The position numbers and the translations under genes were made by a program. From Symbiodinium natans (taxonomy: Eukaryota > Sar > Dinophyceae > Suessiales > Symbiodiniaceae), in assembly GCA_905221605.1 (NCBI GenBank), contig CAJNDS010001646.1, positions 212,001 through 276,000 on the forward strand: a stretch of DNA of 64,000 nucleotides, read 5' to 3'. The notes below the pieces were generated by a model. That model ran no database searches. It was not told the DNA's origin and saw only the letters and a list, made by a program, of their open reading frames with translations. Shown piece after piece: positions 2,932 through 53,304 of this stretch (position 1 is the stretch's first letter; the number at the start of each line of letters is the position of its first letter).

Positions 2932-3249
2932 TCAAGATACAGACGGGCCACCGTCCCTCAACAGTTTGATACAGACGGGGCAATTTGCCTGAACACTTGA
3001 AGAGATACAGACGGGACACCTTCCCTGACCAGTTTAAGAGACACAGACGGGGCACCTTCCCTCAACAGTTTTTTAAGAGATACAGACGGGGCGCCTTCTC
3101 TGAACACTTTAAGAGATACAGACGGGGCACCGTCCCTCAACAGTTTGAAGATACAGACGGGGCCACCTTGCCTGAACACTTTGGGAGATACAGACGGGGC
3201 ACCCTCCCTGAACACTTTCAGAGATACAGATGGGGCACCGTCCCTCAGC

Positions 3250-3250
<1 letters not shown>
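2932..3250. repeat. Minisatellite, nine copies of a 32-39-bp unit
   Basis: Units of the form GATACAGACGGGGCACCTTC followed by CCTGAACACTTTAAGA repeat nine times with small length changes. Two alternating half-versions exist, one ending CCTGAACACTTT and one ending CCTCAACAGTTT. The last copy runs directly into an AGT microsatellite. The long open frames on both strands here are a consequence of the repeat and are not genes. Confidence 0.9.
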
Positions 3251-3323
<73 letters not shown>

Positions 3324-3387
3324 AAGTAGTAGTAGTAGCATAAATGTTAATATTATACAAAAAGTTCTAATATTTCTTAATATCTAC

Positions 3388-3423
<36 letters not shown>

Positions 3424-3424
3424 C

Positions 3425-3464
<40 letters not shown>

Positions 3465-3466
3465 CG

Positions 3467-3559
<93 letters not shown>

Positions 3560-3560
3560 G
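3246..3560. repeat. AGT microsatellites with a head-to-head foldback
   Basis: A first AGT run covers about 3249-3335. After a 53-bp AT-rich gap, a second TAG run starts near 3389 and switches at about 3463-3468 (AGTACGACT) into an ACT run that continues to about 3559. The second block is therefore a near-perfect inverted repeat with arms of about 75-90 bp able to form a long hairpin. Poly-serine, poly-leucine and poly-valine frames across it are artefacts. Confidence 0.9.
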
Positions 3561-8209: not shown

Positions 8210-8704
8210 CTAATGCCAACTCTTTCGTTGGATCCCAGCTTGGCCCCTACAATTGGGGTCATACACCCTCTTCGACTTATAATTCCTATTAGGGTAATAT
8301 GAACATATATGAACCATAAATTCCCTTTGAGGGTTGATTTCGTCCCCAAGGCTCTGGGAAGCCCAGGAACCTTTCTGCCGAAGCAACGCCACCGCCTCCT
8401 TCACTGTGGCATGGCCAGGCCTCACTCACACTCCACCGGCAAAAAAACGAACATTAGATCAAGTAGAACCACAGTAGAACCACTTAGAACCACAGGTGTG
8501 AAAGCTGATGGATGCGTCTCTTGAGGGGAAACTTTGGGACCAAAGCGCTGCCGCCGTCCGAGAGACAAGGGTAGCTCCAAGATGCCCTCGCCGGGAAGTG
8601 TGATGCACACCATGGCCGCGCATTCGTGCGTTATCGCGCGTTCCAGCGGTGAGATTCAAAGCAACTCACGGGTTTACGCCTATAGATGCCTGTAGCCCCG
8701 CCAT
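8210..8704 (-). CDS. Small spliced gene of unknown function, one introner
   Basis: Proposed start ATG at 8704 (MAGLQASIGVN) is followed by a GTGAGT donor at about 8670. A second exon around 8525-8635 reads AAMVCITLPGEGILELPLSL then RRQRFGPKV. A third (8353 to about 8430) reads GHATVKEAVALLRQKGSWAS, and the last (8210-8238) ends TGIQRKSWH-stop. The 114-bp intron between the last two exons is a family A introner with a GC donor; joining keeps the frame. Boundaries of the first two introns are not resolved. No family is recognised. It sits directly upstream, on the same strand, of the decayed LINE copy, which may have landed in its 3' flank. Confidence 0.4.
8239..8352 (-). mobile_element. Introner, family A, 114 bp, GC-AG
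   Basis: On the minus strand the element begins GCCTTGGGGACGAAATCAAC and ends GGGGCCAAG. The middle contains the family landmarks CCCTCAAAGGGAATTTATGG, AATAGGAATTATAAG and CCCCAATTGTAGG. The exon ends at 8353 (CCCAGA) and resumes at 8238 (CTGGGATCC). The inverted ends (CTTGGGGA and a degenerate CCAAG) match other family A copies. Confidence 0.75.
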
Positions 8705-13937: not shown

Positions 13938-16478
13938 TTACTTCCCCGAATGTTCAGTCTCGTGGATGTGATCTACTAGTAATGGTAGTAGAAGTACTGT
14001 GCAATCATGTATAGTAGGAACAGTGATATCAGTCATCCTTTTTCGGTTATCGTGATAGCAATAGTACGTGTAATCGTACTCAGAACAGCAATAGCAATAT
14101 GAACTGTACTGACCATAGCAGCAATAAGAACCGTTACAGTGCGAATCAATCCTCATCGCAACCAGAGCAGTCTTATCATGAGGAAGGACCATGCCAATAT
14201 TCGTATGGCGATGAAAGGTAAATGCCATACTAACAAGCTCCATGCAGGGCACGATGGAAATCATACTGACATGAGGATGGCGAAAGAGTCTGTGCTCTTC
14301 TGGGGTGGCTGTGAGGCAGGCAAGCCCCTTTTCCTGGTGCGTTCGTGCGATCTGGTTTAAAACAGAACAACCAGCCTCGTTGTTGGGGCATCCGGGCATT
14401 CCCGTGTGCAGCCCATTCGGCTGCTCACGAGAAAGACGGAAAGACAGGTCAGTTGGATCGGCAAGTGACAGGTGCAGCTGCTGCAATTCAACGTCAACCT
14501 GCACTCAAAGACTATATAGCAGCACAGAGCGGACAGAGGTTTTCTCTGTCTCATACAAGGCCGTAGTCATGCATGGAGGACTCCTTGTACTTGTCTAAGC
14601 CAATTTTCTTGAGGGGCCTGGAAATCCCATCTGCTGATTTCACCTCCTGGTACTTGGCGTTGGCGATCTGCAATGCCTCTTCGTGGCTCTTTCCCTCCAT
14701 GCGGTGGTGCGAATAGCGAACTTCATGTGCGAAGACAGGGATCCATTCGTCGAAGAACCTGGGTTGGAACTTCATCGTTTTTGCAGCCAAACAAAACAAA
14801 GGAAGGCAGCCGACTTGCAGTTCCCCCTTCTAACTGCCAACGCCGAGGAGCTTGTCAATAGAGCCTGGGCCAGTCATGCTGGTACGCTTCGAGGTCAAAG
14901 GGGACTTGGACCCCACCAGCCACATGGGATGCTCTCCGCCATCGGCTTTGTCGAGTTGCGACGGTTCACCTGTAGATGGGTGAGCCTCCACCCAGCCAGT
15001 GAAATGGTGGTAGGGGTTGTTGTACCACAACATGACGCGATAGACGGGGACTTTGCAGCAATTCGAAGCCACGTGCTGTTCCATCGAATTCCCGTCGTTT
15101 CGGTTTGCATGCGTGGTGTGCACCATCAACATGCAGCTCTTCAGCCCACTTCCCCCTTGCTGCATACCCATGGCATAGCGCCGCCCAGGCGGCGGGTACG
15201 GGTAGTGCGGGACGAAGTGCCAGAGATCCACCTTCTGGGCACGGCCCGGGTAGTGCTTGCCCCGGGAGATGATCTCCCTGCTGATCTTCGAGCTGCGTGT
15301 CGGGTCTTGCTCGTTGATGTCCGCGCAAGTGGTGCTGATTTGGTTCACAAAGCGATGGTCCAAGTCATCCAGCCATGGATTGCAGTTGATGTAGTACTTG
15401 TACCATGGCATGATGAGCCACATTGTGGAAAGGATCCACATGACCTCGAGCATGCCCTGTCGGCAGGTCTGGCCCATGACCGACACGTAGATGTCAGGAA
15501 GGTGCAAGATGATCCAGGGGCCGTTTCGGTAAGGATCAATCGCCCTCATGCTCCGCCACACCGCGCCGAAGCGGCAACTGCAAATGCAGAAGGTGATGCC
15601 GAAGATCCAATAGAAGACCTGCGTTCTCAGAGAAAGTACGCCAAGTCATTCTTCGGGTGTCTCCTACCTTATAAACGCCCACCAAACCAAACAACTCTCA
15701 ACAACAAATACCCCCAAAAATATTGGGGCAAGAAGCGTAGTCCAACATCAGCGACACAAGGGCCAGGATTCCAGCAGGCAGGTAAAGGACGAAGACCAGC
15801 ATGAAGGACACCCAGAACATGGCGGTGCGCTCAAAGGAATCTGTTCCAGCCTTCACACATGCCACGTAGGATCTCACCACGACCATTGCAGGAAACTGGA
15901 GCAGGAGCATCGGCAAGAAGAGCACCTTGAGGACCGAGTGAACCCAAACATTGGGGTACACAAGCCTTATAGACTACTATACAAATTCCCATCAAGGTCA
16001 TATGACCCAGGAACTATAACTCCTACTGAGGTCATATGACCCCTGAGCCCTTCTAGGGCTCATTTCTCGTCCCCCCAAGGCACAAGCATCTTGGGAAGCA
16101 TCCAAAGAGCGGTGGTGATCATGGCGTAGCGAGCAGCGCATGCTGCCAAGCCCGACTCGTCAGTCCTTGGGGCGCCGAGAAAGGAACCCTCAAAGGGTTT
16201 CGAGGTTCAGAATACCTTGAAACGGATATGACCCCAATTTTAGGGTTCATTTGGCTTTCAAGGGTCGTCCATGCCTGATCCTTGCTTGTGTCTGAGCCGT
16301 CCGATTCCTGGAGTGACACGCCGCCCGCTTTCTTGATGGCGCGGATGTGGGCCATGCATCGTGCCGACTCGCCATTCAAACGCATGCGCGTCGCCTCATC
16401 TACGGTAACCTTCTCCCACTGCCGCTCCTCCACAGACACCTCCGCCATAGCTTGGACTGAGGACCCCCCAGTTCCCAT
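13938..16478 (-). CDS. Multi-pass membrane protein of unknown function, six exons
   Basis: Start ATG at 16478 (MGTGGSSVQAMAEVSVEERQ). Exons: 16267-16478, 16084-16165, 15737-15925, about 14890-15618, 14557 to about 14812, 13938-14498. The joins at introns 1-3 and 5 restore the frame with donors GA, GT, GC and GT. Exon 3 carries two hydrophobic segments (VLFLPMLLLQFPAMVVV and MFWVSFMLVFVLYLPAGILA) and exon 4 two more (VFYWIFGITFCICSCRF and MLEVMWILSTMWLIMPWYKY). A soluble part follows with WHFVPHYPYPPPGRR and FAHEVRYSHHRMEGKSHEEA. The last exon is rich in Tyr and Cys (YCCYGQYSSYCYCC) and His. An N-terminal MG could be myristoylated, but this is speculation. I do not recognise the family. The junction between exons 4 and 5 is ambiguous. 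Confidence 0.7.
15926..16083 (-). mobile_element. Introner, family A, 158 bp, GT-AG
   Basis: Fills the second intron of the multi-pass membrane gene exactly. The minus strand begins GTGCCTTGGGGGGACGAG and ends GGTCCTCAAG; the next exon base run is GTGC, duplicating the donor. It contains two copies of the internal word GTCATATGACC and both ACTCCTACTGAGG and TTCCCATCAAGG variants, suggesting an internal duplication. Confidence 0.85.
16166..16266 (-). mobile_element. Introner, family A, 101 bp, GA-AG
   Basis: Fills the first intron of the multi-pass membrane gene. The minus strand begins GACCCTTGAAAGCCAAATGA and ends GGCGCCCCAAG. Exon TGGAC joined to GACTGACGAG gives WTTDESG in frame. GAC is present at both edges, consistent with a 3-bp target duplication that also provides a GA donor. 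Relative to the copy at 15926-16083 the element is inserted in the opposite orientation: its ATGAACCCTAAAATTGGGG end is at the donor side here. Confidence 0.8.
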
Positions 16479-19744: not shown

Positions 19745-22700
19745 ACTTCACTTCCGGGCTCTTGCCGACGGGCTCGCTCGCCTGGCCTCCAGATCCGACG
19801 ATGACGATGCGGAAACGCTCCTGATTCCAGTCGTGGGGGAAATCTTGCACGGACATGTGGCTGCTGGAATCGGCAGTGTGCGCTGTCATGCGAATGAAGC
19901 GGTTGTGCTCCGAGTTGTGCAAGCCGATGACTCCGTCGAAGAGGTCGCTGGCAGGTACCACGGTGAATGACTCCCACTTCCAGTTATGAGGGAAAGACTC
20001 ATGGTAGCCCCTCTTTGGGCTGACGCCCAGGTCCCCGCCACCCCTCATCGACACATACTGGTTGTGATGCGCGTTGTGCAGGGCAATCTGGCCATTCCCG
20101 GCATCCTTCACTGTGAACTTCTCCCAAGTCCAGCCCGAAACAGGGTAGTCACTGGCAGCTTTCGGAGGGGAGCGTCCCATGTCGGTAGGGTGCATGTTCA
20201 GGAACCGGTTGTGTACCTTGGGGACCAGATGAACCCTAAAAAATGGGGTCATCTTTACCCTCTATACTACTATACTTCCTATTAAGGTCATATGAACCAT
20301 AAAACTAGTATCATTCCTGTTAAGGTAATATGAACCATGAAACTACGATAATTCCTATTAAGGTAATATGAGCCTTAAACCCTGTTAGGGCTCATCTCGT
20401 CCCCAAGGTACTTGGCAGTGTAGGGCGACAACCGTGCCGGGCTCCAGGTATGGCTTCACGGGCAGCACATGGAAGCGCTCCCAGGCCCAGCCTATTCGTA
20501 CTGTTGGTTTTAATCCCTAAACCCTATAGACCCTAAACCCTACATTCCCCTATAGACCCTTTAAGGGAACTTGAAAACCCACAGTTAGCCTTGGGAGTGC
20601 CAGATGCCAGCCGGAGGATGGTGGCTGTAGCCGACGCCATCGTTGCGCATCTGAAGGAACCGGTTGTGGTCGTGCCAGAGGCCCACGTCCCCACCAAAGG
20701 CAGGCCACATTTCAAACTTCTCCATGCCCCATCCGGCAGGAAACCGATCTGGGTCCCTGTGAGGGCTGACACCACCCAGCTTCACGAAGCGGTTGTGCCT
20801 GCTGTTATGCAGTGCAATGTACTTATGATCCACGTGGACCACCGTGAAACGCTCATGGGTCCACCCATCAGGGAGCTCCATGGGCACCTCCCCGGTACGG
20901 TCCAGATGGTCACGTCGCATGGCCAGGAAGCGGCGGTGGTGCTTGTTGTAGAGGGCCACCGTGGTTCCAGGCACGAGCTTCCTAGACTAAATTTTGCATT
21001 TTTTGCTGCTTCTTGGGAATCAAAGTACCCAAAAATTAAAATGTTCCAAGTATCCCCAAGCTTCGGTGTTGCGTCCACAACCGTGAAGCGCTCCCACGTC
21101 CAACCATCTGGAATATGATCGACGGGCCCCTTCCAGCCAATCCCATTCCCGGACAGCTGCATCCACTTGTTTCCACGGGACTTGAGGCCGACCTCTCCAT
21201 TTCCGAGATCCACCACATTGAAGCGCTCTGCTCCCCATTCGTGGGCAGGCGGGAGGTCGTTCACGTTTCTGTGAGGGCTGACCCCACCTGCGCGACTTAA
21301 TTTTATATATGCATATATACGTGGTACCCCCTCCCCCAAAAAAAATACCACACTTCCCTATGCTTTGCCATGAGGTCTGGTCCTAATCCTGATGCATTGC
21401 CGTCATTCAAAGCTGCAAACTGAACACTTTAAAGTTACATACTCATATGTGGCTATCTTGTCCAGATTCGGACTTTTTTTTCCGGCTCCCCAAATCCAGA
21501 ATTCCAGTTTTTTCGGCCCCCCCAATTGCAGAACTCCAGATTTTTTCTGACCCCTAATTCCAGAAATCCAGGTTCTGGAATTCGGGAATTAGGGGTCTGA
21601 AAGAAACTGGAATTCTGCTATTAGGGGGTTCTGGGATTCGGAATTATACGTCTGAAACAATTGGAATGGTTTCTTTCTTAATGAACACGAAATAGCCCTT
21701 ACTTAAATGAACCAAACCCATGTACTAATGAAAGAATTGAAAGTAGCAAGTCAAACAAACTGCATGTTAATGTTACAAACGAAAGCAACTGCATGAAGCA
21801 ACTAATTTACTGAGCTGAGCACCGCTTAAATAAAAGTGCTTGAATACCTCAGCATTCGCAAGAAATACCATCTAACTGATGAAATGAGCACAAGTTGAAC
21901 TTACTACATTTTACATTCGGGCATAGCGTAACTTGATGCATGTGGTCTCAAAAAGAAGAAGTTAGTCCACATAGGGGCCATTACAATAAAGGTCGTGATT
22001 TAACTAGTTCAGTGGGCAACTGGCCCTTAGACATTAGGGCATAAGTGGAATTTAACAAATTAGGGGTTAATGGAGTCAAGTAGTGTAAATTGGTGCATGT
22101 ACGGTCTTAAAGAAAGTTAATCCACATAGGGGCCAGTTCAATAAAGGTCGAAAATTTAGTTACTTCAATGTGCAATTAGCCCTTAGACAAACTAGATGAA
22201 CTGAATTTTTTCTTATCAGGAAACCTCAGCATCATTGAAACTAATCGCACCACTTCAGTTATTCTTTAAAGGACAGGATTCTAGGTATTCAAGTCACTTA
22301 ATTCTTTTAGCTAAGGGCCCAGTGATTTTTTTCAGCTGATCATAAGCCTTACTAAAATGAATTACATGAATGGAATAATGGAAAATACGTAGACTAAACA
22401 AGTTGATTCAGCAATTCATCCAAGTATTTGGAAGCATGATTCAATTAGTTGAGTTAAACGGTAATTAAATACGAGAGGTTTAAGAAAAGGATTGGAATCT
22501 ACTTAATTTAGATCACGGAATTTCTTTTACTCGCACGTGAATGCAACTATTTCAGTTAATTAAGTTGCGGTCCTTCAACAAGTACTTCTAAACATTTTCA
22601 TTGACCCTCCACTCCCTCCACGCTGAAAACAACAAACGTTGCGCATGAGTGGCCTAGTAGCTGTCCTTTATTCTTTGCGTATCAGCTCATGATGCATCTG

Positions 22701-25700
22701 TTGTAAGTCTTGCTTCTCGGGGGATGTCTTTAACCTTGCCTATTCAGGGGCCTGTTCAGCTCTGCTTATTCGGGATACCGGTGCCGGGTCTGGGGTCTTG
22801 TAAGTTGTGCTTATTGGGAGATACTCGTATATTTAAGTCTTGCTTATTGGATGATGTTACAGGACAGTCGCTCTTCCTAGGGTTTGGGGCCTTGTAAGCT
22901 TAAAAACAAATAATTTATCTAGTATAGCCGATTTGTTGAGTTTACTTGGTTCCATTAAACTCCTTAGCTATTTTGATGTCCGACTTACAGAGGGACCATA
23001 TTATAGGAAGATATCGGTGTCACAATGCTTCTTATAGTTTATATGAGCAAGGGGTGGAGAAGAGGGACAGTGAAAGAAAGGTGTGGATCCTGGGCGGGAG
23101 TGGGGGGGGGGGACCTTGGATCTGCAAATTTATACTGCGAGCATCCATCAATTGACTTTCCAAATTCCCAGCCTCCATCTTTTTGAATTGTTTCTTCGGA
23201 CCCACAATTTGATTGGTATCATATCCAGAGGTTTCATAGTGGGATACAGAAAAAAACAGGGTGTAGCATATATATGTACATATATATGCCTGTAGAAATA
23301 AATAACATAATACATAAATAAATGAAGAAAGAAACAAATAAATAAATAATATATATATATATATGTATAAACATGACTCATTTGATTTAAGGCAACGTCT
23401 CTCAGCAAAAAGCGGGGGGGGGGGGGGGGGCATGTCTCAGAAAGAGGGCCAATCACAGGGCCCCGAGCCTTCCTTGACGAAGCGGTTGTGCTGCGCGTTG
23501 TGCAGGGCGATCTGACCGCCCCCGGCATCCACCACCTTGGGGACTAAAAGAACCCAAAAGTTGAATTCGTATATCTATATATATATGTACATAAACAGGT
23601 ATACACTCTACTACTATAATTCCTATGAAGCTATATGGACCATAAACCCTTTGAGGGTCCATTTCGTCCCCAAGACACGGTGAAGCGCTCGTGCGTCCAC
23701 CAGTCACGAATGCCGTCAGGAGTCGCTTCCGGGCTCGTCCAAAGCTTATCAGGCCACATGCCCATGTAGCGGTTATGGGCCTTGTTGTGGAGGGCAATGA
23801 CCTCAGGGACTAAGGACAAACCCTAAACGGCTTGCTGTTCCCTAGAAATCTAGGGTTTGTAGATTATAGCATATTCGGTTGATGATCACAATTACAAAAG
23901 GAAGAACACTTCATTTTTTTCAACATGCCCAAAACCCCTACCCCTGATCCCATAAGTTCTTTAAAAGTATATATATATATATATAGAAGTATTGTACCAC
24001 ACCCCCCGAAGTTTCGCTTGAGGGGGTATGCCCTTATGGGGTACGTTGAAGATTTCTTACAAGAGTACGACGCTAAACCCTAAACCCCAAAACCTCACAA
24101 CCCTAAGCCCTAAACCCCAAAACCCCTAAACAAAACTCGTCCCCGAGGCACCGATCCGGGCCGAAGCTCGAGTCCCTTCACGCGGCCAGCGTCCTTGGTA
24201 GAGAAGTCGGAGAGGGCGCGGATGGCAGTCTTCTTGGTCTCCTTATCTTCTCCAAGAACTTCAACAGGAAGAGTTATAAAAGGCTAAGCTTCAACTCTGC
24301 TATGAGCTTATGATCCTTCCTAGAAAAGCAAGGAAGCCCCTAAACGAGGCTTCAACCGCTCAACTCTTCTGTAAGTCTCCACGGAGATCCATGGGATGGC
24401 GCTCAAGATGACAGCAAACTGCACCCCGATGTCCGCCAGAGGGGCCCTTTTCGTTGGGCTTTGGTACGGCCCGAAGCCCATCCTGAGGGGAAATAGAGGT
24501 CTAGACCTTCAGAATGGGGATTCGGGATCCATACAAGGCTGCAAATGTTTGAATTAGGCACATCTGCAAGTTTTGCGTAAAAACAACTTCAAGGATCTGG
24601 ATCCCCAACTCCAGGCTGTTGCCGTCGAGGAGGCCTGAAATCTCGAAGTTCGACATCCCGGGCTTCTTGAACTTAAAGATCTCGATGACGCTGTCCTTGC
24701 CCTGGCCTATGCTGAACTTGGAAACCTAGCAGAACTTATAAATTGTATAACCTAGCAGAACTTATACAATTTTAGCTGGTTTCTTGGCGGGAATTATAGT
24801 ACCAAAAAACCAACAAACACTTATACTTTTTGCTGGTTTCTTCTAGGAATGATAGTACCAAAAAAATGAAAAGAACATGATTCCCAGAAGTATCCCAAAA
24901 AGTGGCCTTGGGCCTCCTGCATGGCGCTCAGGTGCCGCAAGGCCTCGGGGCCCCGGAGCTCCCAGGTCTTGTTGGCCTCGGCTTGGTCGCTGTAGTCGAT
25001 GGAGGCCATGTAGAGGTCCTCAGACTCGGTCCTGCAGTCGAACCCTTGACATCCCTTGACCCTAAACCCGAAACCCTAGACCCTAACCCTAAACCCACAG
25101 ACTCCGTCCTCCAGTAGTAGGAGGACTCGGCCTCTGCCACATCGGAACTTTCTTCGGCTTCTCCCTTTTCGGCTTCCCCTTGCTCACTGGCACTGTAAGA
25201 GACGTTGCTCTTTCTCTCCAAGAGCTTCATGGGGGCAAAAGCGTGCCTCGATTCGCCCTTGGCGATGCCGATCGGGGATCTCCATGTTTGATAGCCTCCC
25301 TGGAGGTTTTCTTTCACAAACTTCGTGTGGTCGCCGAAGCGCTTCGCAAGGCGCAGCGTCCGGCTGAAAAGGAGGTGGCCGCCCCCAGTTTTGATCTCCG
25401 AGCGCAGCACTGTGAGGTCCAGGCCGCCAGGCATATGGTTTGGCCAGCACACTGTGGTGATCAACCTCCACTCTTCCCTTAGAACCTTCAAAAACTAGGA
25501 CTCTTAACATTCCCTTGCGTTTATATACAACAAATAGAAAATGATTCGTAAGGGGGCTATAGCAACTTGAAGAGAGGCTTTGGCAGAAGCTCGACAGATA
25601 AGCCTGCAACAAAGGCGACCACTGGCTGAATTGAGATCGCAAAGGACACTGAGATGCACTTCTCGATGTCCGTGCGGGCGGTGTAGAAGGAATAACCCTG

Positions 25701-28700
25701 CCACTTGTCCCAGTTCTCTTTCATCCAAGCATTGTCGCAGGGCACCGCCCAGGGCTCCAGCTTCACGAAGTCCTCCTTCTTGGCTGACTGCCAGTCAGCT
25801 TTGGTGGCCTGGCGATGATTCTCCACCTGGGCGCCGTTCTTGCTGCTTGGGGCAAAGGCGAGGCAGGAGCCAGTGTCGGCCTCCCTGCCATCGAACTGGG
25901 TGATCAGGTTTGTGACTTCCGCACTTCCGCCCACCCCCAGCTTGAACTCTGGCGCTCCTGCCTCCGCATTCATGGAGTACTGCAACAGCGAAGGGTGCAG
26001 AAGCTGCGAGTGTGCCTCCACAAGAAGATGGTCGTCCTGGTGGTGCACCACCGGCATCTTGCCGACCGCCGGGAACTCGGACACGCTGGCCTTCTGCACA
26101 AAAGAAGTACCGCCCTTCAAGGCCTTTTTCATCACAGCCGTGGCCGCCTTCGCGAAGGTCTCAATCGTTTCGCCGATGATCTCACCCAGGTGGTTCAAGA
26201 AGTTGAGGGGAGGGACGCTCCCGATGATGTTGTTGCCCAGGCACTTCGTCACCTCTGTACCTGACTCAAAATGCTGGCAGCGCATCAGCTCGTTCCCCAT
26301 CGCCAGCACGCTCTTGATGGAATTGACGTGCGTGCCTGCAAGAACCTTGACGGGCGAGGGCAGGAAGTTCAAAGGGGGTTCGAACTCCATGACGAACCTG
26401 CCCAGTCGCTTGGCAAGGCAGTGGAACGGGTTGTTTTGGTCGCAGTGATGGGTGTGGTGCAGGAGGTCGTTCATGAACCACCACATCCGCTGGATAACGT
26501 TAAAGGGCACTTTTGCCAGCTCACCCAGCTGCCCTGGTAGCCAGTTCAAAGGGGGTTCGAACTCCATGACGTGCCTGGCCACCCGCTTGGCGAGGCAGTG
26601 GAACGGGTTGTTTTTGTCGCAGTGATGGGTGTGGTGCATGAGGTCGTTCATGAACCACCACATCCGTTGGATGACCTGAAAGGGCGCGTGCGTAAGCTCC
26701 CTGATTTGGCCGGGCAGCCAGTCCAAGGGATTTGGAAAGTGCACGTCCCTGTGGCCGAAATTGCTATTGAAGAGAACGACCGTTTTCCCCACCAGAGTGA
26801 CGGAGCAGTACAGGGAACCGAAGCCAATGCTAAGCCTTTGTCCATGCAGCTGGGCACTTGGGACCCCTGTACGGCAATTTGAAGTGAAGGAGAAGCCCTT
26901 GAAGTTCATGAGGATTGTGGTTGCCTTCTCGACCGTATCGATCACGGTGTTCTGAATGAACTCAACAGCCTTGCCCTTCTCCTTCACCTTGTTGAAAGCA
27001 TCCTTCAAAGCGCCACCAGTCAAGCCAGAGCCATCGACGGCGTCAACGGCTTTATTGACTGTCCTGGTGATTGGGTCGAGCCACTTGCTGGCCACAGAGT
27101 GGTCCAAAGAGTCCGACTTCTCCGAGACACTGCGCTCCTGTCCGGTTCTCTTTCGGGATGGTTGGGTCTTTTTCCAGATGTTGGGCAGGCAGGTCCCCAA
27201 GGTCCCCAAACCCCAAACCGGACCATAAGACGGTGCCCCAATAGATCCCAATAGCCCTTATAAGACTCCCTGCCTGACGCTGCAGCAGCGCCTCCGCAGT
27301 GCTTGCGGCTCTTTCTGAGGCTGGCTCAGCCGGATGCCTCTCTTCCTCTGGAGTCTAGACGGGTCTTCAAGTCAGGGGCCTTCTTTGGACCTCTAGAGAC
27401 TCTGGAGCAGTGGAATAGGGCGCTGGGTGGCATAGGATGAGGGCCAGTCGTTTCAGCAGTGACACGGGGAAAAAATTGCGGTGCTGTCAGGCACGCCTTA
27501 TTCCCTACTTGTGTAAGGCCAGATGATCTGGATCATGTCAGATCCGCCACGTGCTGCGGCTATCTGCGGCTGCTACTGAGACGTGCCCACGCGGCATAAG
27601 GCAATCTTAAAAGCTTGCTGAACCCAACACTCACGCCGTCGTTGCTGTCCTCGTGACCTTGGTGGTGGTACTCGCGCGTCTCACGCTGGCGGTGGTGCTT
27701 GTCAAAGACTCCTTTCCTTGGGGGACCAAAGGAGCACAAACCGTACTATAAGATGCTATAAGTCCTACAAGTATGAAAGTTGAACCCACAAACCCCTTTC
27801 ATGAAGGTATCTGAAGCACTATCAAACCTTTTTAAACTAGACTTGTCAACTAAGGAAGCCTCTGCTTGTTGAGTTTCCCCCCCCCCCCCAAAGGCCCAAG
27901 GTTCAAGACATGCTGGACAGCATGAGGATCCCGGGAGTGCTTCCGTGCCATTTCCACGTGCTGGGCCTCCAAACCTTAGACGTGGCTTCCAGTATTGGGA
28001 GCGGTGTCCTACTGCATCTCTCTGCATTCTCCAGTACTCCTGGGATAGGCGGTTTCGGCAAAATGCACGATAAGGGCAGCGAAGAAGCCTGTATGCTTCT
28101 TCAGAGACTCGATCTCGAGCTGCTGGGCGTTGATCTCGGCCTGCTGCAACTGCACCACCGTCTCGAGCTGTGCCACCTCCGACACAGGTTTTGAAACTGG
28201 AGTGGGGGACATAGTGGTTGTCTCGTCTCTGCTCTCACGACAGCACCTTCATCGCGCCTTCATGAAGATGAACTCCAGATTTTGCGCCAGCGCGCCCATC
28301 CCTCGAGTTTCGTTGGTGGCATTGCCTTCCTGGCCAAGGGTCTTGAATCAACGCTGGGCCGGGAGACTTGAATTCACAGCTTACAGCGGAGCTGTCCCTG
28401 CAGTTGCCACACTGGACGGTAAGACGCGGCAGAGGGCATTCTTCTACATCATTTACTGGAAGTCGATTTCAAGCCCTGCATCTCCACTGACTCACTCACA
28501 AGACTCTCAACACCCGCGAGGTGCATTCATAAGATATCTGCACTATGTCAGACTATGTCATTGCAATTCTCTGGGAACTCATGGGGCCTACTGTATACGG
28601 CGTATACGGCCTCCTTCGGTTCCGGCATTGCGTTCGTGTCGCCGGCATCATGCAACAAGTTCGTCTCGATCAACTTCTCCACCTGCGCAGCTGAAATTTA

Positions 28701-29033: not shown

Positions 29034-29164
29034 TCAGGTTGATGGAAGATGATTGAAACTTAGAGGCTGCGTAGACGATTGCAGATGAACGCTCGAAACG
29101 CTCGACACGCTCGTTCCCGCAACTCCTGACACTCTGGCGGCTCTTGCGGTTCTGCAACCCTTGC

Positions 29165-29248
29165 AGACGACAAGAACCCTAAAAGGGTTTCTGGTTCCCC
29201 CATGTTCCCCCCAAGTTTAGGGTTCATGTTGGTCCCCAAGGACTGCGA
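29165..29248 (-). mobile_element. Family A introner, short copy upstream of the start
   Basis: The minus strand has CCTTGGGGACCAACATGAAC then CCTAAACTTGGGGGG, and ends CCTTTTAGGGTTCTTGTCG followed by TCTGCAAG. It lies about 130 bp upstream of the ATG at 29033 and is probably a 5' untranslated-region intron of the large secreted-protein gene. Confidence 0.6.
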
Positions 29249-44309: not shown

Positions 44310-45190
44310 TTAAGGCTCGACTCCGGGAGGGAGAGGGTGGAGGCAGTGGAGGCGCTCGGCAATCTGCTGAGCAATCTCCTGCACCTCCAGCGTGCGGCAG
44401 TCCAGCCTTCGAACGCCCTCGTTGAAGGCGAACCTTGGGACCAAATGAACCGTTCAATTGGGGGTCATATACCCCTATACTATAAGTCCCTGAACCACAA
44501 AGCCCTTTTACAGTAGGGCTCATTTCGTCATATTTCGTTTTCAAGGAACTGGGTGAGGCTTTCACCCTCCCCGTCCTTGTCGAACATGTGCTCTGGACCG
44601 CTTGGTGGCTCGGGCGGGAAGGTGTCCGCCACTTGGAGCGGCAGCAGATCCAGCCCTTTCGAGTTCGCGTAGCGGAGCTCCTCGTAGGAGCTGAACTTGG
44701 AGGCCGTCACCTCCGCGTAATCCTCCGAGCACACACAGAGCATGATCCCGTTCTCCCTCCTCAGCCGGTTCAGGAACTTCCTGGTGGCCTTGCCAAAGTC
44801 ATCGCCAAGTCCGGCATCGACCATCAGCACATCGTACTTGTGATCCCTCAAAACTTTGTGAACTTGCCGCATCTTCGTCTCGGTCTCTTTGTTCTTGGCA
44901 TTGAACCGCGCCGAAAACATTGCCAGCCTGGTGAACGCCACCCTCACCACTAAACCCCGGTCGACCCCTAATCTCAGGCCCTGAAGGCCTCAAAACGTAA
45001 GACCGCAACTCAAAACGATTCCATAGGGTTTCAGGGTTTAGTTCCACCCTATCAGCCTTCAACCCTAAACCTTATAACCCCCCACCCCCCATCCCGCCCC
45101 TGCCAACAAGAAAAAGAACTTCAGAGCCGACACGCCTGGAGCCGGTTCCATCCTTCAGAGCGATGGGAGCGGCCTCGCGCAGCTGGCGCG
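44310..45190 (-). CDS. TIR-domain protein
   Basis: The main exon (44550-44949) reads RVAFTRLAMFSARFNAKNKE, then VLRDHKYDVLMVDAGLGDDF, ENGIMLCVCSEDYAEVTASK and FSSYEELRYANSKGLDLLPL. This is the beta-alpha order of a Toll/interleukin-receptor fold: an opening FSARF strand, a YDVLMVDAG strand, MLCVCSEDYAE, and an SSYEEL helix where catalytic TIR enzymes carry their glutamate. The last exon (44310-44433) follows a family A introner and reads FAFNEGVRRLDCRTLEVQEI AQQIAERLHCLHPLPPGVEP-stop. An upstream exon near 45115-45190 (REAAPIALKDGTGSRRVGSE) probably belongs to it. TIR domains act in signalling, as adaptors or NAD-cleaving enzymes; which applies here cannot be told. The start codon was not located. 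Confidence 0.7.
44434..44549 (-). mobile_element. Introner, family A, 116 bp, GT-AG
   Basis: The minus strand starts GTTCCTTGAAAACGAAATAT and ends CATTTGGTCCCAAG before exon GTTCGCC. GTTC is duplicated at the two junctions, and removal gives ESLTQFAFNEGV in frame. The interior has GACTTATAGTATAGGGGTAT and CCCCCAATTGAACGG, as in other family members. Confidence 0.9.
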
Positions 45191-46136: not shown

Positions 46137-46240
46137 CTTGGGGACGACAAGAGCCCAGGTCTATGGTTCACCTTGATACGAGTCCAGGAATTCTGACCCC
46201 AATTGTTGGGGTTCATTTCCCAAAGGAGATGTTCTTGGCT
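46137..46240 (-). mobile_element. Introner, family A, about 100 bp
   Basis: The minus strand ends CTCTTGTCGTCCCCAAG before GTCTGCATCTCC and contains AATGAACCCCAACAATTGGG and GGTGAACCATAGACC. The acceptor edge is clear, but the donor edge near 46235-46240 is not. Confidence 0.7.
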
Positions 46241-47039
46241 GTTGGCTTACAGCGTCTTCTGCTTCTGCAACTCGTGTTGCAGCTCTCCACTTGCAGCACG
46301 ACTGCCTTCCCTCAATCCCGGTCACTATGTAACCGGTTCAAGATCTTGCAACTGTTGTAACCCTCAACCCTAAACCACACCAATCACTTCCATGCCGTGC
46401 CAGGCCTCCAAAGCATCCTGGACCTCCTGTAGGCGCATTGTGCGCAACAGGAGGAGACTTCGGGATTACACCCCAAAAAGGCTCTCTCAAAATGGGTTTA
46501 GGGGTTTATAGGGTTTAGGGTTAAGGGTTAGGGGTTTAGGGTTGCAAACTTCAACTGATGGGCCCGAACTGACGCAACCCGATACCACACATGCACAGAA
46601 TCCTGAGCCCTCAGAAGTCGCAAGGCGACTAAAAAAGCCCCAGGCCGAATCCTTGACATCCCTCAGCAGCGAACCTCAAAAAGCAACACGAAACCAAAGG
46701 AGCCGTGGATGCTGAAACCCGCCTCAGACTTCTCAAGGGAGGCCGCCCGCAACGCGGCGACCTGGCCACCAGAGAAGCGGGGTACTATGCAGATAAGTAG
46801 CAAGTATTGCAACTCATAGATTGACACATGTTTATAATTATGTATATATCTACATTAATCACTCTCTCTCTCTCTCTCCCTTTCTTGATTCGTTTTGCAT
46901 GGCAAGGCATACATGTACGGCGCAGACGACCACGCAAATAGGTGGGTAGATCAATCGGGGCTGGCACTCCCGTGTTCTTGATTGAAACTCACCGAGGAAG
47001 TCGGGAAAAGCAGCAGCGCAGCGCACCCGAAGCTTCCAT

Positions 47040-47145
47040 GAAGACTGAAAGGGTTTATGGTTCATATGCCTTAATCGGAATTGTAGTAGTAGAGGGTACA
47101 TATGATCCCAATTTTGGGGTTCATTTGGTCCCCATGGCTTTGGAT
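47040..47145 (-). mobile_element. Introner, family A, at 3' end of armadillo gene
   Basis: The minus strand reads CATGGGGACCAAATGAACCC then CAAAATTGGGATCATATG, CTACTACTACAATTCCGATT and CATATGAACCATAAACCC. The ends are less regular than in other copies (CCATGGGGACC at one side, TTTCAG at the other). It lies after the codons KKAPIERIQS. Confidence 0.75.
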
Positions 47146-49436
47146 CCTTTCAATCGGGGCCTTCTTGATCTCCTCAGCGTTGGCGCTGTTGTTCGCCAGG
47201 ACTTGAAGAGCTCCCGAGGCTGCTCTGCTTGCCGCTTCCTCGGCGCCTAGGAAGAGGTGAACCAGTGGAGTGATGGTCCCGGCAGCCGCGATGGCGACCT
47301 GGTAGTCCTCGTTTCCGAAGGCTAGTTGCTCAAGAGCTTTCGCAGCTTTCTCCTGAGCACTGGTGCAGCCACTCTGCAGGAGCTCAGCCAGGGGCTGGAT
47401 GGCCTCAGCCTTAACGATTTCGGCTCGGAGGTTGGAATCGTTCAGACTCAGATTCACGACGAGCTTGGCCGCTTCCTTCTGGAGCTCCACGTTCCCACTC
47501 CTGAGGAGCTCAACGATGTGCGGGATGGCGCCGGCTTCAGCTATGGTGCCCCCAACCTTGGGGGCCAAGTTTACGAGAGCTCCCACAGCAAGCATCTGGC
47601 GCTCCACGTTCCCAGTTTTGAGGAGCTCAACGAGGAGCGGGATGGTGCCGGCGTCAGCGATGATGCTGCGGAGGTTACCGTGGCGGGCCAAGTTTGAAAG
47701 AGCTCCTGTCTACATGGGCTATTCTACCCTATAAACCCCCTAAAACAGGCCCTTCATAGGGTTGGTTCGGGGATCAAAGGCCCAATCGCGATTCGCGCCC
47801 ATGCTCCTATGGGCATCTGGAGCTCCACGTCTCTGCTTTTCAGGAGCCCTGCCAAGAGCGGGATGGCGCCGGCTTTGGCTATGGTGGCAGCCAGGTTGGC
47901 GTCGCGGGCCAACATTGCAAGAGCTCCTGCGCCACGTGTCTGGAGCTCCCCATTCCCGTTTTTGAGGAGCTCAAGTAAGAGCGGGATGGCGCCGGCTTCT
48001 GCTATGGCGGTAGGAAGCTTGTCGTATAAGGCCAAGTTCGCAAGAGCCCTTGCAGCAGGCAGCTGGAGCTCCACGTTCCCGCTTTTGAGGAGGCGAACCA
48101 GCGGCAGGATGGCAGCACTCACTATTCCAGTTCCGGCACGCTCTGCGCCCAAACTCAAGTTGGCAACAGTTCCGGCAGCAGCTGCCTGGGCCTCGGCGCT
48201 TCCGGTCTGCAACAGCTGAATCAGTGGCTCGACAGCACCGGCCTGAGCTTGCGCACGCTTAGCACTGCTTCCTGCTTTTCAGCATCCTGACAACGTACCG
48301 TAAGCACAAAAGGGCAGGCCGCTTGCATGATCACCTGTCACTTGCTTTCGCAGGCTTTCGTCGATCTCGAGGGTGATGGAGCTACGATTTACTGGTTAAA
48401 CACTATCGGTAGTCTCTGCGACGGAAAAATCGGACATGCATGATTTCTCGTGTCACAAGTTTGTGGTTCTTCTATATGCATGAACAATACCACTGCCGTC
48501 CGCATCCAATGTTACCGTGATGTCGCGCATGGCAAAGGCATCTGGTCCAAAGCAACAAAACAACGAGTGCGGACACATGCAGCACCGACAAGCTTTACAC
48601 ACACTGCGAGGTCGAAACAATGAGATCCCCCCTTGATCTGTTTTGAGCTGCGCTTTGTGCTAGATCCGTGCCCTTGGTGATTCAGGTTGCCTGGGTTTTC
48701 ATTAGGATTTCAACGAAAACATGTCCCCTGCACTCTTGCCCATTACAAATAATGATATCGAGATGTCAAGAAGTCACAACGGCACTCTTCCGATGCGGGT
48801 GCGCTTGCTTAAAGGTGACGGAAACAAAAAACATCAAAAACCCAAAGCCGGCCTCGAGGACGCGCTTCTTGTGACCGACGTTGGGATCCGAAACGCCAAG
48901 CAGCTTTCGGGAGCCATCCTTGCCGATGGTCACCCTCTGGCCATTCAGCGCCAAATTCCGGAGAGCTTGGACTGCGCACTCCTGCTCGTGTGCACTGCCC
49001 TCCTTCAGCAGCTGCACCAGAACCTCGACGGCACCATTCTCGACCACGGCAACACGGGCATTCTCATTCCGAGCCATCCTCTCAAGAGCTTCGGCGGCGT
49101 GCGCGACAAGCTTGCCAGGCTTGCCGATGCCGGACTTCAGCATCTCCACGAGAGGAGGGACGGCACCTTCCCTTGCCATTGGCTCCTGGTTCTCCTCATT
49201 GCTGGATAAGTTCCGAAGAGCTTGCACGGCACTCTCGCGGGCCTTGACACTTCCAGCCAGCAGCTCAATGAGGGGTTGGATGCCACCTTTCTGGACAATG
49301 GCGACCTGGCTGTCGTGGTCGGCGGACTTCTGCTCCAAAGCCGCCGCAGCCGTCTCCCGATCCTGGTCTGTCCCAGCCAGCAGCCCTGCGAGCAGCTGCG
49401 GGATGGAGCTCGAGCAGCTCGCCTCCTCAGTGCTGC
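47040..49436 (-). CDS. Armadillo-repeat protein
   Basis: Exons 48915 to about 49436, 47807-48271, and about 47150-47705. Units such as VAIVQKGGIQPLIELLAGSV, REGAVPPLVEMLKSG, VVENGAVEVLVQLLKEG, IAEAGAIPLLLELLKNGNGE, IADAGTIPLLVELLKTGNVE and IVKAEAIQPLAELLQSG repeat every 41-43 residues, about eleven in all. Each has the armadillo signature of a G-A-I-P-x-L-x-x-L-L helix and an A-L-x-N-L-A helix. The join at 48914/48272 is GC-AG over 643 bp (KDGSSAKRAQAQAGAVEPLI) and the join at 47806/47706 is GA-AG; both keep frame. The 3' end runs into a family A introner near 47040-47145, so the final exon is not certain. Armadillo arrays bind other proteins; partner unknown. Confidence 0.85.
47706..47806 (-). 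mobile_element. Introner, family B, 101 bp, GA-AG
   Basis: The minus strand starts GAGCATGGGCGCGAATCGCG and ends CCATGTAGACAG; the exon resumes GAGCTCTTTC, so AGGAGC is duplicated. The interior matches 28739-28812: TTGATCCCCGAACCAACCCT, AAGGGCCTG, TTTATAGGGTAGAAT. Removal gives QMPIGALSNLARHG in frame. Confidence 0.85.
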
Positions 49437-49439
49437 CGG

Positions 49440-49530
49440 GGGTTTTTAGGGTTCATCGGGTTGGTAGGGTTTGTAGGGTTGATAGGGTTTATAGTGTTTA
49501 TGGGGTTTATAGGGTTTATAGGGAATGCCA
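49440..49530. repeat. Degenerate heptamer array TTTATAGGG
   Basis: About ten copies of GGGTTTATA or GGGTTGATA related to the telomere unit lie upstream of the first recognised armadillo exon, ending close to its GGCAG acceptor. A similar array occurs at 53660-53705. Frames in 49540-50170 exist on both strands but none is convincing. Confidence 0.7.
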
Positions 49531-50752: not shown

Positions 50753-53304
50753 TTAGTCGGGGCTTGAACAGTCAGAGGGCGCCTTCAGTGTTTGAAAAGC
50801 CTGAAGGTGAAATGCTGGATCGTTGTTGACGGCCAGCACCAGCAAAGCGAGCACTTTGACGTCACCTCGACAGGTCGAGCCGTTGCACAGCTGGCGATTC
50901 ACTCCGTGGGTATTTCCCAGAACAGGGGAAGCCCTGTGAAATAGCACCCCCTTAAAAAGAACCAAATCAGGGTACCCCTCTTGCCGGAACCCCCTCCCCA
51001 ATCTCCAATCAACCTTTTCTTCGCGGAGTGTTCCGGAGAAGGGATGGATCTCGTGCTCAGCATGAGCTTGGCCTGCTTGGGTGGCATAGAACAGCGCCGG
51101 TCGACCGAAAACATCAGCCTGAAAGTCGCATCACTCATTCCCACACTCACAAGGAGCCGGCTCTTAAGGCACCCAAAACAGACTGACTCGTTGCTTTCCA
51201 GCCTGGCTGGCACTGGACTTCGCCTCCAAGAGCAACTTGACCACCTCCAGCTTCGCTTCCTCGTCGTTGTTGCCCATGGCGTAGAAGAGGGGATTGCGAC
51301 CCCGGGCGTCCTGGCGAGTGAGGCAGCTTGTGCTCACGCCAAGATCCCAAATCCCGAAACCCAAGCACCCAGTCGCCCAGCCTCCAGGAATGCGAAACCC
51401 CGGCTGATGCGCAGCAAGTCGTACACGACCTCTGGGCTGCCGCAGCATGCCTGAGCTTGTTACTTTCCGTGTGCTCAAAGTGAAGCTTCGCTCTCTCGCT
51501 GAGTACTGCAGCATGGGTTTACGTGCGATGTTCATCAGCCGCGATAGCTACTTAGGGGCAGGGGGGGGAGGAAGTGCCGCAAGAACGGAAGAAGGACGGC
51601 CAAAAAAAAGACTAAGCGCAGCGCAAACCCTGAAACGAAAGCCCACAAAAGGATTCTTTGCGAGGGCGGATCCTCGAATGTCCGAGGTGCACAGTGGAAG
51701 GCAGTCCTTGGAGTTGTGATGGGCAACAGGAGGGTGGCTTGGGAAGTTCGACATTGTTTGAACCCTTTGAGAGCCCCCCCCACCCCCCATGAACCCCGCA
51801 AGCCCTAAGCCCCCCCGTGTCCCTAAATCCTCAACCCTAAACCCTTAAAGAAAAGCGAAGGAACTGAACACCGAGCGGCCGGCCCCCTTGGTCCACCTGC
51901 TCCGGCCGCGCGCCGTGCTGAAGCAGGCAGCGCACAGCGGCGAATTGGCCATACCTCACCACCGAGAATTTACTTGGAGGTTCAGGGGACTTGTATCCCA
52001 ATTATAAGTGTAGTGATAACCCACTTATAAGCCCGTTAAGCACCCTAATGGGGTTATAATTTGGCCATACGTGCAGTTTTAATTGGGTTACTAAGTACCA
52101 TGAACCTCCAAGTAGTCATGCAACGAAGGACTGCACGAGACATCATTTCGGGAGATCCCTTCCTAGGATGATGAAAGCCGTTTTGGCTTGGTTAAAAGCC
52201 AGTCATGCAAAGAAGACAAGGGTGCGTGAGGGCTTGGGGTTTTGGGGTCGTTTCAGCGTTTATAAGGCATATATATATATATACACTCACATACAGCTTG
52301 TGGCCCAATGGGGTGCGAACCCAAAAGACTCTTTAGGTCTCTCAAGTCTCAAGGTACAGGCAAGCCAGTGTCAGGGCCGTGCCGCCGGCACCTGGTCGGA
52401 GCACATCCAAAAGGGCCGACAAGGAACAGCCGGCCAGGGAAGCTTTGCGGTTTCGGGTTTAAGGTTGAACCTGGGACACTGTTTACCTGCAGTTTCATGG
52501 GTGCTACCTAGTTACTACTAGACTGTAGGTAAATGGAGTCCAGGTAGGGTTTAGGTTTTCGGGTATGTGGCAACGTGCTTGTGAAGGGAGCCTTCCGCAG
52601 CGTGGATGTCTGCTCGTAGCCTCAAGAGCATGTGACAGACCTCCGGGCACCCAGCGACTTGCATGCTCGGCCTGAAACAACATGTCATATACCCCAATTG
52701 TAAGCCTCATCTGGTCCCCAAGGTATGGAACTCCCAAATTCGCAATTGCAGTGCACTTGCGCTTTGAGATGCTTTTGGGACATCGCGTCACGTAAGCTCC
52801 ACGCGAACCCCCCCAGGAGCCCTAGACGCAGCATTCTGTAGCTTCCGAAAGGGTTTAGGGTTTTGCGTTTAAGAGGGCTGAGGGTTTAGGTGCTCAATGT
52901 ACTCAAGTGTACCCTGACACGGCAGATGGGCCTGGGCGTGCCCGTGCCTCGCTGCGCAGTGCAGGGGTGTACGGCCGCACTGGTCCCTGGCGTCCAAGAG
53001 CTCCACGAGGCCATCCTTCGAAGCAGATCGCGCCCCTTGTTGTTTCGGATCCGTCCTTCCCGAATAATTGGAAGCTTTCTACAGAAGAACAAAACTCCCA
53101 GATGCCCTCATCAATCCTAAGCTGGGTTTGGGTCTGTGGCAGGATCCAGTGCTCACGAATCCCTGAGACAAAGAAGCCCTCACTCCCGGCACAGGTCCTC
53201 GGAGGCCTTGCGAAGAATGCCCTGAACTTCCGCAGCGTCTCCTCGCAGTCCCTCTTTGAAGTTCTGAGAGGCCGTTTTGGGGATTCCAATAAGATCAAAG
53301 GCAA
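50753..53304 (-). CDS. Ankyrin-repeat protein
   Basis: Successive minus-strand exons carry ankyrin-type units: DARDQCGRTPLHCAARHGHA (about 52920-53050); VAGCPEVCHMLLRLRADIHA (about 52590-52660); YGQFAAVRCLLQHGARPEQV (about 51880-51960); SPEVVYDLLRISRGFAFLEA (about 51370-51445); DARGRNPLFYAMGNNDEEAK LEVVKLLLEA (about 51215-51330); ADVFGRPALFYATQAGQAHA (about 51010-51120); and a last exon NTHGVNRQLCNGSTCRGDVK to KAPSDCSSPD-stop at 50753. An N-terminal exon may be 53130-53304 (RDCEETLRKFRAFFARPPRT). Each unit matches the D-x-x-G-R-T-P-L-x-x-A consensus or its following helix. The introns hold elements of families G, H, F and A. Exact splice sites were not all read. Ankyrin arrays bind partner proteins. 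Confidence 0.75.
50936..51000 (-). mobile_element. Element, family G
   Basis: The minus strand GGGGGTTCCGGCAAGAGGGG then TACCCTGATTTGGTTCTTTT and TAAGGGGGTGC shares GGGGTACCCTGATT with the copy at 32306-32402. It lies between the last two exons of the ankyrin gene. Confidence 0.55.
51971..52114. mobile_element. Family H element with perfect 14-bp inverted ends
   Basis: TACTTGGAGGTTCA at 51971-51984 is the exact complement of TGAACCTCCAAGTA at 52101-52114. The interior is AT-rich with a further partial symmetry (TATCCCAATTATAAG versus TTTTAATTGGGTTAC). It abuts the ankyrin exon ending at about 51960, and its CCTCCAAG end supplies the nearest AG on the minus strand. Confidence 0.85.
52460..52556. 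mobile_element. Family F element in ankyrin gene intron
   Basis: CTGTTTACCTGCAGTTTCAT then GGGTGCTACCTAG and TACTAGACTGTAGGTAAATG then GAGTCC match 42655-42778. TTTACCTGCAGT and its near-complement ACTGTAGGTAAA form an inverted pair about 40 bp apart. Confidence 0.75.
52676..52724 (-). mobile_element. Family A introner, truncated copy
   Basis: The minus strand has CCTTGGGGACCAGATGAGGC then TTACAATTGGGGTATATGAC. Only one half of the family A consensus is present. The next ankyrin exon follows after TTTCAG. Confidence 0.65.

Follow-up and report, generated by a model that had tools for sequence, protein, structure and literature searches.

Passages of PMC9860276 describe introners of Symbiodinium microadriaticum that have inverted ends and 4-bp duplications, carry the 3′ splice site within the element and take the 5′ splice site from the duplication; recruitment of splice sites partly from neighbouring exon sequence is also mentioned there. 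Dinoflagellate introner families that each account for many introns were reported by Roy et al. (2023, Curr Biol; as cited in PMC11453091), and the introners of Prorocentrum cordatum and Amoebophrya are described with inverted repeats near both ends and are defined by short direct repeats of 3–5 nt (PMC10666404, PMC7789003), those of Amoebophrya often using other splice letters.

The elements analysed here are, judging from their sequence, an introner family of this already known kind. They resemble S. microadriaticum family 1, as described by Gozashti et al. (2022, PMC9860276), in having terminal inverted repeats, a flanking duplication, an element-borne 3′ site and a 5′ site drawn from the insertion site, and they resemble the introners of Roy et al. 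in forming a family with many introns. Unlike family 1, for which 4 bp are reported, 2 bp are duplicated here and the G of the donor is an exon base outside the duplication. The Prorocentrum and Amoebophrya introners share the terminal inverted repeats and the short direct repeats but differ in repeat length, since the duplication here spans only 2 nt and appears longer because of a shared G. As the comparison with the published introners was one of descriptions, the family may already be described: it could be the same as S. microadriaticum family 1 or possibly be among the introners of Roy et al. A limited literature search, of main article texts, returned no mention of a 2-bp introner duplication. 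The present analysis contributes a family consensus in this genome, a filter for a preceding G and a 2-bp duplication, the last resolved by including copies that lie beyond known coding sequence.

The window, a stretch of 64,000 nucleotides of a Symbiodinium natans contig, contains the following members and candidate members of the family.

8239..8350, unstranded: copy with one end damaged and without duplication (profile and flanks)
15926..16083, minus strand: predicted second intron of a gene for a small membrane protein; the exon G is followed by the duplication TG and C, then by the element (element proper CTTG..CAAG, 15926-16079)
16166..16266, minus strand: predicted intron 1 of the gene holding the 15926 intron; GA-AG donor, duplication AC, opposite orientation
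20217..20411, minus strand: predicted intron of a gene built from WERF/ALHN repeat modules; three inner units of 38 bp, TA duplicated
23536..23678, minus strand: predicted intron that follows FTV in another repeat module; TG duplicated, with a mutated terminal G
27717..27900, unstranded: doubtful member with similar ends and TT/TT flanks (profile E 0.46; core score within shuffles)
29160..29240, unstranded: copy with 2-bp duplication AC and no G on either strand (profile E 2.7e-9)
44434..44549, minus strand: predicted intron in a gene with a weak, below cut-off TIR-domain match (PF13676); duplication TT
46137..46225, unstranded: copy with truncated right end (profile)
47028..47136, unstranded: decayed reverse copy adjoining an armadillo-repeat gene (core reverse score 85 against a shuffle maximum of 33)
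52675..52722, unstranded: right-end fragment (profile E 0.018)

A 20-nt end motif, with up to 4 mismatches allowed, occurred at 10 places in the window and at none in five simulated windows. A profile matched nine copies at E≤3e-9 (8239, 15926, 16166, 20217, 23536, 29160, 44434, 46137 and 47037); since it was built from the same nine copies that it recovers, the motif count is the independent support. The sequences quoted in the preliminary description were all present where it had placed them, and nine of the copies it listed are backed by the profile, but 27717 is doubtful and 52676 is only a fragment. The family ends are CCTTGGGGACGAAATGAACCCTA and its reverse complement, and with the outer C and G included the element ends read CCTTGGGGAC...GTCCCCAAGG. 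In the two best window copies 17–18 of the 20 end bases pair as terminal inverted repeats, and fewer pair in the others. There are two size classes, a short one of about 110 bp and a longer one whose inner units are repeated. Window copies are 73–95% alike over their aligned parts, and identity within the ~110-bp class reaches 95.5%, so that some copies may be fairly young. By core score, 15926, 20217 and 23536 lie one way and 16166 is reversed (41 against a shuffle maximum of 30), while the orientation score of 44434 falls within the shuffles (34 against 36). RNA fold z-scores, with a background of 60 random stretches (mean −0.26, SD 0.96), were −5.5 at 20217, −6.3 at 15926 and −4.2 at 29160, and weak at 46137 (−0.2) and 47035 (−0.9); folding of the element may help but is not required.

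Beside the decayed reverse copy, armadillo-repeat ORFs occupy positions 47071-49452 of the window on the minus strand, with armadillo (Arm) Pfam matches on the 47074-47709 ORF. The WERF/ALHN repeat gene has another short intron at about 20980-21070 on the minus strand, a CTTGGGGAT...TTCCCAAG hairpin seemingly set between GAAGCT repeats and perhaps representing a separate introner family. The window also holds an amino-acid transporter ORF (PF01490; 12264-13310, minus strand) and a long TAG/CTA trinucleotide run that forms an inverted repeat (3246-3560). No transposase Pfam match was obtained among 46 of the 54 window ORFs of at least 150 aa, and a search of the window against Rfam at gathering scores together with a tRNA scan returned nothing.

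The genome searched comprised 759,417,921 bases in 2543 contigs. With the 20217 copy as query it gave at least 57 matches, the copy itself included, a lower bound with 40 of 1114 candidates scored. Two contigs sampled for paired copies had 3 and 18 per 100 kb; because both came from the match list of the 20217 copy and differ sixfold, we give no genome-wide copy number or density. The introner load is strongly uneven between genomic places, as these densities and one locus (L030) illustrate; L030 carries at least five copies in 3.2 kb across HEAT, DUF4116 and kinase frames. On another contig (C1280:567898-568682, loci L005 and L013) element matches recur every 75 bases, the inner unit of one copy having seemingly expanded into a long tandem array. 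The end motif was absent from viral contigs, and the host gene had no relative in viral and prokaryote contigs.

The length of the target duplication was determined on 42 copies with both ends within 4 mismatches over 19 bases, which were not selected by their flanks; the locus of the window itself, copies whose flanks contained N and copies repeating another's flank were left out. The two inner flank positions matched in 32 and 33 of the 42 copies, against about 13 by shuffling, whereas the outer positions, 1 and 4, matched at chance (15 against 15.4 and 11 against 11.8, respectively), and the base beside the left end was C in 37 copies and that beside the right end G in 39. With the inner two positions matching and the outer C and G nearly constant, the duplication is 2 bp long and the C and G belong to the element. 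The duplication was perfect in 29 copies, AA or TT making up 14 of these pairs, and the remaining 13 lacked a perfect one. The result was retained when one mis-paired span was removed (inner 31 and 33, outer 14 and 10 of 41) and when L030 and a second locus, L002, were left out (inner 25 and 27 of 34 against about 10; outer 8 and 9, as at chance). In the window, seven of eight two-ended copies have a perfect 2-bp pair; 29160 has one and yet fails a 4-bp test, and the flanks of the doubtful 27717 carry a 2-bp duplication too. The short duplications noted in the preliminary description (GTGC, GAC, GTAC, GTTC) are 2 bp and not 3–4 bp long. An earlier reading of our own, a 4-bp duplication with decay, was rejected on the outer positions of the 42 copies, and the 4-bp duplication of S. 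microadriaticum family 1 was likewise not found here.

In the window, five elements, taken on the plus strand, lie in minus-strand genes; the left flank supplies the predicted donor, and the putative acceptor is the AAG at the end of the element. Open frames across the junctions had been offered as evidence that the host frames close exactly, an argument that is weak alone, since 52% of 1500 random deletions keep at least 80 open residues; the junctions were therefore scored against homologues (P0007–P0009 for 15926, P0007–P0010 for 16166 and P0006 for 44434), with 961 donor/acceptor shifts per element. The predicted junction was the best G[TCA]..AG junction at all five introns. When splice letters were ignored it ranked first, with ties, at 15926, 16166 and 23536, fourth at 20217, and 64th of 961 at 44434, for which a single, distant homologue was used. 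In agreement with this, tblastn matches to homologues split at or near the element ends at 15926, 16166, 20217 and 23536, and the match at 44434 ended before the junction. These results support the five copies as predicted edge-to-edge introns; the sixth copy so described before, 8239-8352, has no duplication and one damaged end. The host genes, previously counted as four, are possibly three, because 20217 and 23536 may share one repeat gene.

Named protein relatives of the window genes include models of Breviolum minutum, Fugacium kawagutii and Prorocentrum cordatum, the model-name prefixes symbB and Skav being ones that we take to denote B. minutum and F. kawagutii, respectively. At four window sites the intron is absent in relatives at the protein level. 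The alignments of P0007, P0008 and P0009 have no gap at either the 15926 or the 16166 junction; P0009, an F. kawagutii model, has a stated span of 597 bases, which is exactly 198 codons plus a stop and therefore one exon, and its coordinates are where the absence, otherwise read from proteins, reaches the DNA level. P0010 (87% identity over 54% of the query) also continues through both sites, 16166 and 15926, passing the second in a shifted frame that follows a short difference. This shift comes immediately upstream of the site at 15926, as though a few bases had been added; an excision footprint and a sequencing error are both possible reasons. P0001 aligns without a gap over 20217, and in sister modules of the repeat gene the homologous codons are uninterrupted at the 23536 and 20217 positions. 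Two further entries, P0005 and P0012, are the same genome's own frames running straight into elements, which suggests that unnamed protein entries may be unspliced ORFs.

Similar sequences form predicted introns at unrelated gene positions elsewhere in the genome. Eight further copies, four each in L030 and L002, interrupt kinase, HEAT, DUF4116 and ankyrin frames; for two of them the right end was set 1–2 bases off the motif match so as to read AAG/G. Removing the copies gave joined proteins with a CDK-like kinase domain (PF00069, E 3.7e-59; junctions VAI^KKM and HPN^VVQLL), DUF4116 (E 1.8e-24), HEAT (E 2.1e-5) and ankyrin matches, part of the ankyrin ones falling below the Pfam cut-off. A copy on contig C446 sits in an ABC-transporter-like frame whose ABC_tran match (E 1.1e-9) falls upstream of the junction. 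This copy is preceded by the G, but its flanking pair is mismatched and its predicted donor is GC. Nine other coding-frame candidates, of 22 listed, had no Pfam match.

Together with the five window introns, these eight copies make 13 in coding sequence, and in 13/13 the exon base before the duplication, on the coding strand, is G. Among the other 19 intact copies, G stands on 10 of 38 sides, and nine have it on neither strand. The difference between coding copies and sides gives a Fisher P of 2e-6, a generous value because L002 and L030 were picked after their G had been seen and the copies are possibly not independent. Taken by themselves, the five window introns, which were likewise first recognised by donor-like flanks, have G in 5/5 (Fisher P 0.003 per side); counted per copy, 5/5 against 10/19 splice-competent copies is not significant (P 0.12). 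The predicted donors of the 13 coding copies are GT in nine, GA in four and GC in none. GC makes up 58% of donors in S. natans according to Table 2 of PMC10666404, and its lack here would follow if the second donor base came from an A/T-rich pair. As only two bases are duplicated, an insertion seemingly gives a clean intron only where the exon already supplies a G, and selection would be the cause of the G before the duplication. Similar copies occur elsewhere in the genome, but the intron-confined pattern named in the preliminary description does not hold: nine of the 19 other intact copies are unable to yield a lossless intron. Such copies fit a transposon filtered by selection.

The preliminary description had interpreted the elements as a DNA transposon that creates introns on insertion, and this is the reading best supported at the sequence level, because of the inverted ends, the target duplication, the coinciding element and intron boundaries, the intron-less homologues and the similar copies elsewhere. 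In full, the best explanation, to which we assign a probability of roughly 0.85, is a non-autonomous, MITE-like DNA transposon family that makes a 2-bp duplication and yields a lossless intron when it lands after an exon G. The element, presumably mobilized by a partner transposase, would insert with the observed duplication of 2 bp of target, and in an exon after a G the transcript would read G-NN-C-CTTGGGG...CCCCAAG-G-NN. The donor would consist of the exon's G and the first base of the duplicated pair (GT or GA), so that the duplicated pair would set the donor type, and the acceptor would be the AAG of the element's end, boundaries that homology supports and at which we infer splicing in the cell. 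The element's last G would replace the exon G that stays in the intron, leaving the message unchanged, and either orientation could work because the ends are inverted repeats. Insertions without a preceding G would give no lossless intron and would be expected to persist only outside exons.

A variant of this explanation keeps the introner but supposes that the target duplication is genuinely 4 bp long and that its outer bases decay, as 4-bp duplications are reported for S. microadriaticum in PMC9860276 and three of the eight two-ended window copies match over 4 bp. We consider it improbable, given the chance-level positions 1 and 4 and the near-constant left C and right G in the 42 copies, and a position 4 that matches in only four of the 13 coding copies. 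Somewhat less probable still is that transposons lie inside older introns and that boundaries coincide by chance or through later trimming: dinoflagellate genes are described as intron-rich (PMC10666404), but element and intron ends coincide in 13/13 coding copies examined, and at four sites in the window the homologues run on without interruption. A spread of the introns as spliced RNA through reverse splicing, instead of DNA transposition, would account for elements that fill introns exactly and of which several fold better than shuffles; the inverted ends, the 2-bp duplications around copies unable to be lossless introns and the predicted intron made by at least one reversed copy (16166) argue against it, and it is the least credible of the three, with very little chance of being correct. 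We therefore retain the MITE-like transposon with a 2-bp duplication.

Introners are a leading explanation for bursts of intron gain. Separating the act of the transposase, the 2-bp duplication, from that of selection, the preceding G, makes aiming at splice sites something that can be counted, by comparing exonic with intergenic copies within one genome, and warns that duplication lengths taken from intron-forming copies alone can come out too long. We put at about even odds the idea that the 4-bp duplication reported for Symbiodinium is itself a shadow of selection: the transposase would duplicate 2 bp, the outer G/C would be the element ends, and only insertions after an exon G would persist in coding sequence, because the donor G+N and the acceptor AAG/G restore the message exactly. 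If this is true, introns would arise without any aiming at splice motifs, and which insertions do no harm would be decided by the tolerance of the dinoflagellate spliceosome for GA and GC donors.
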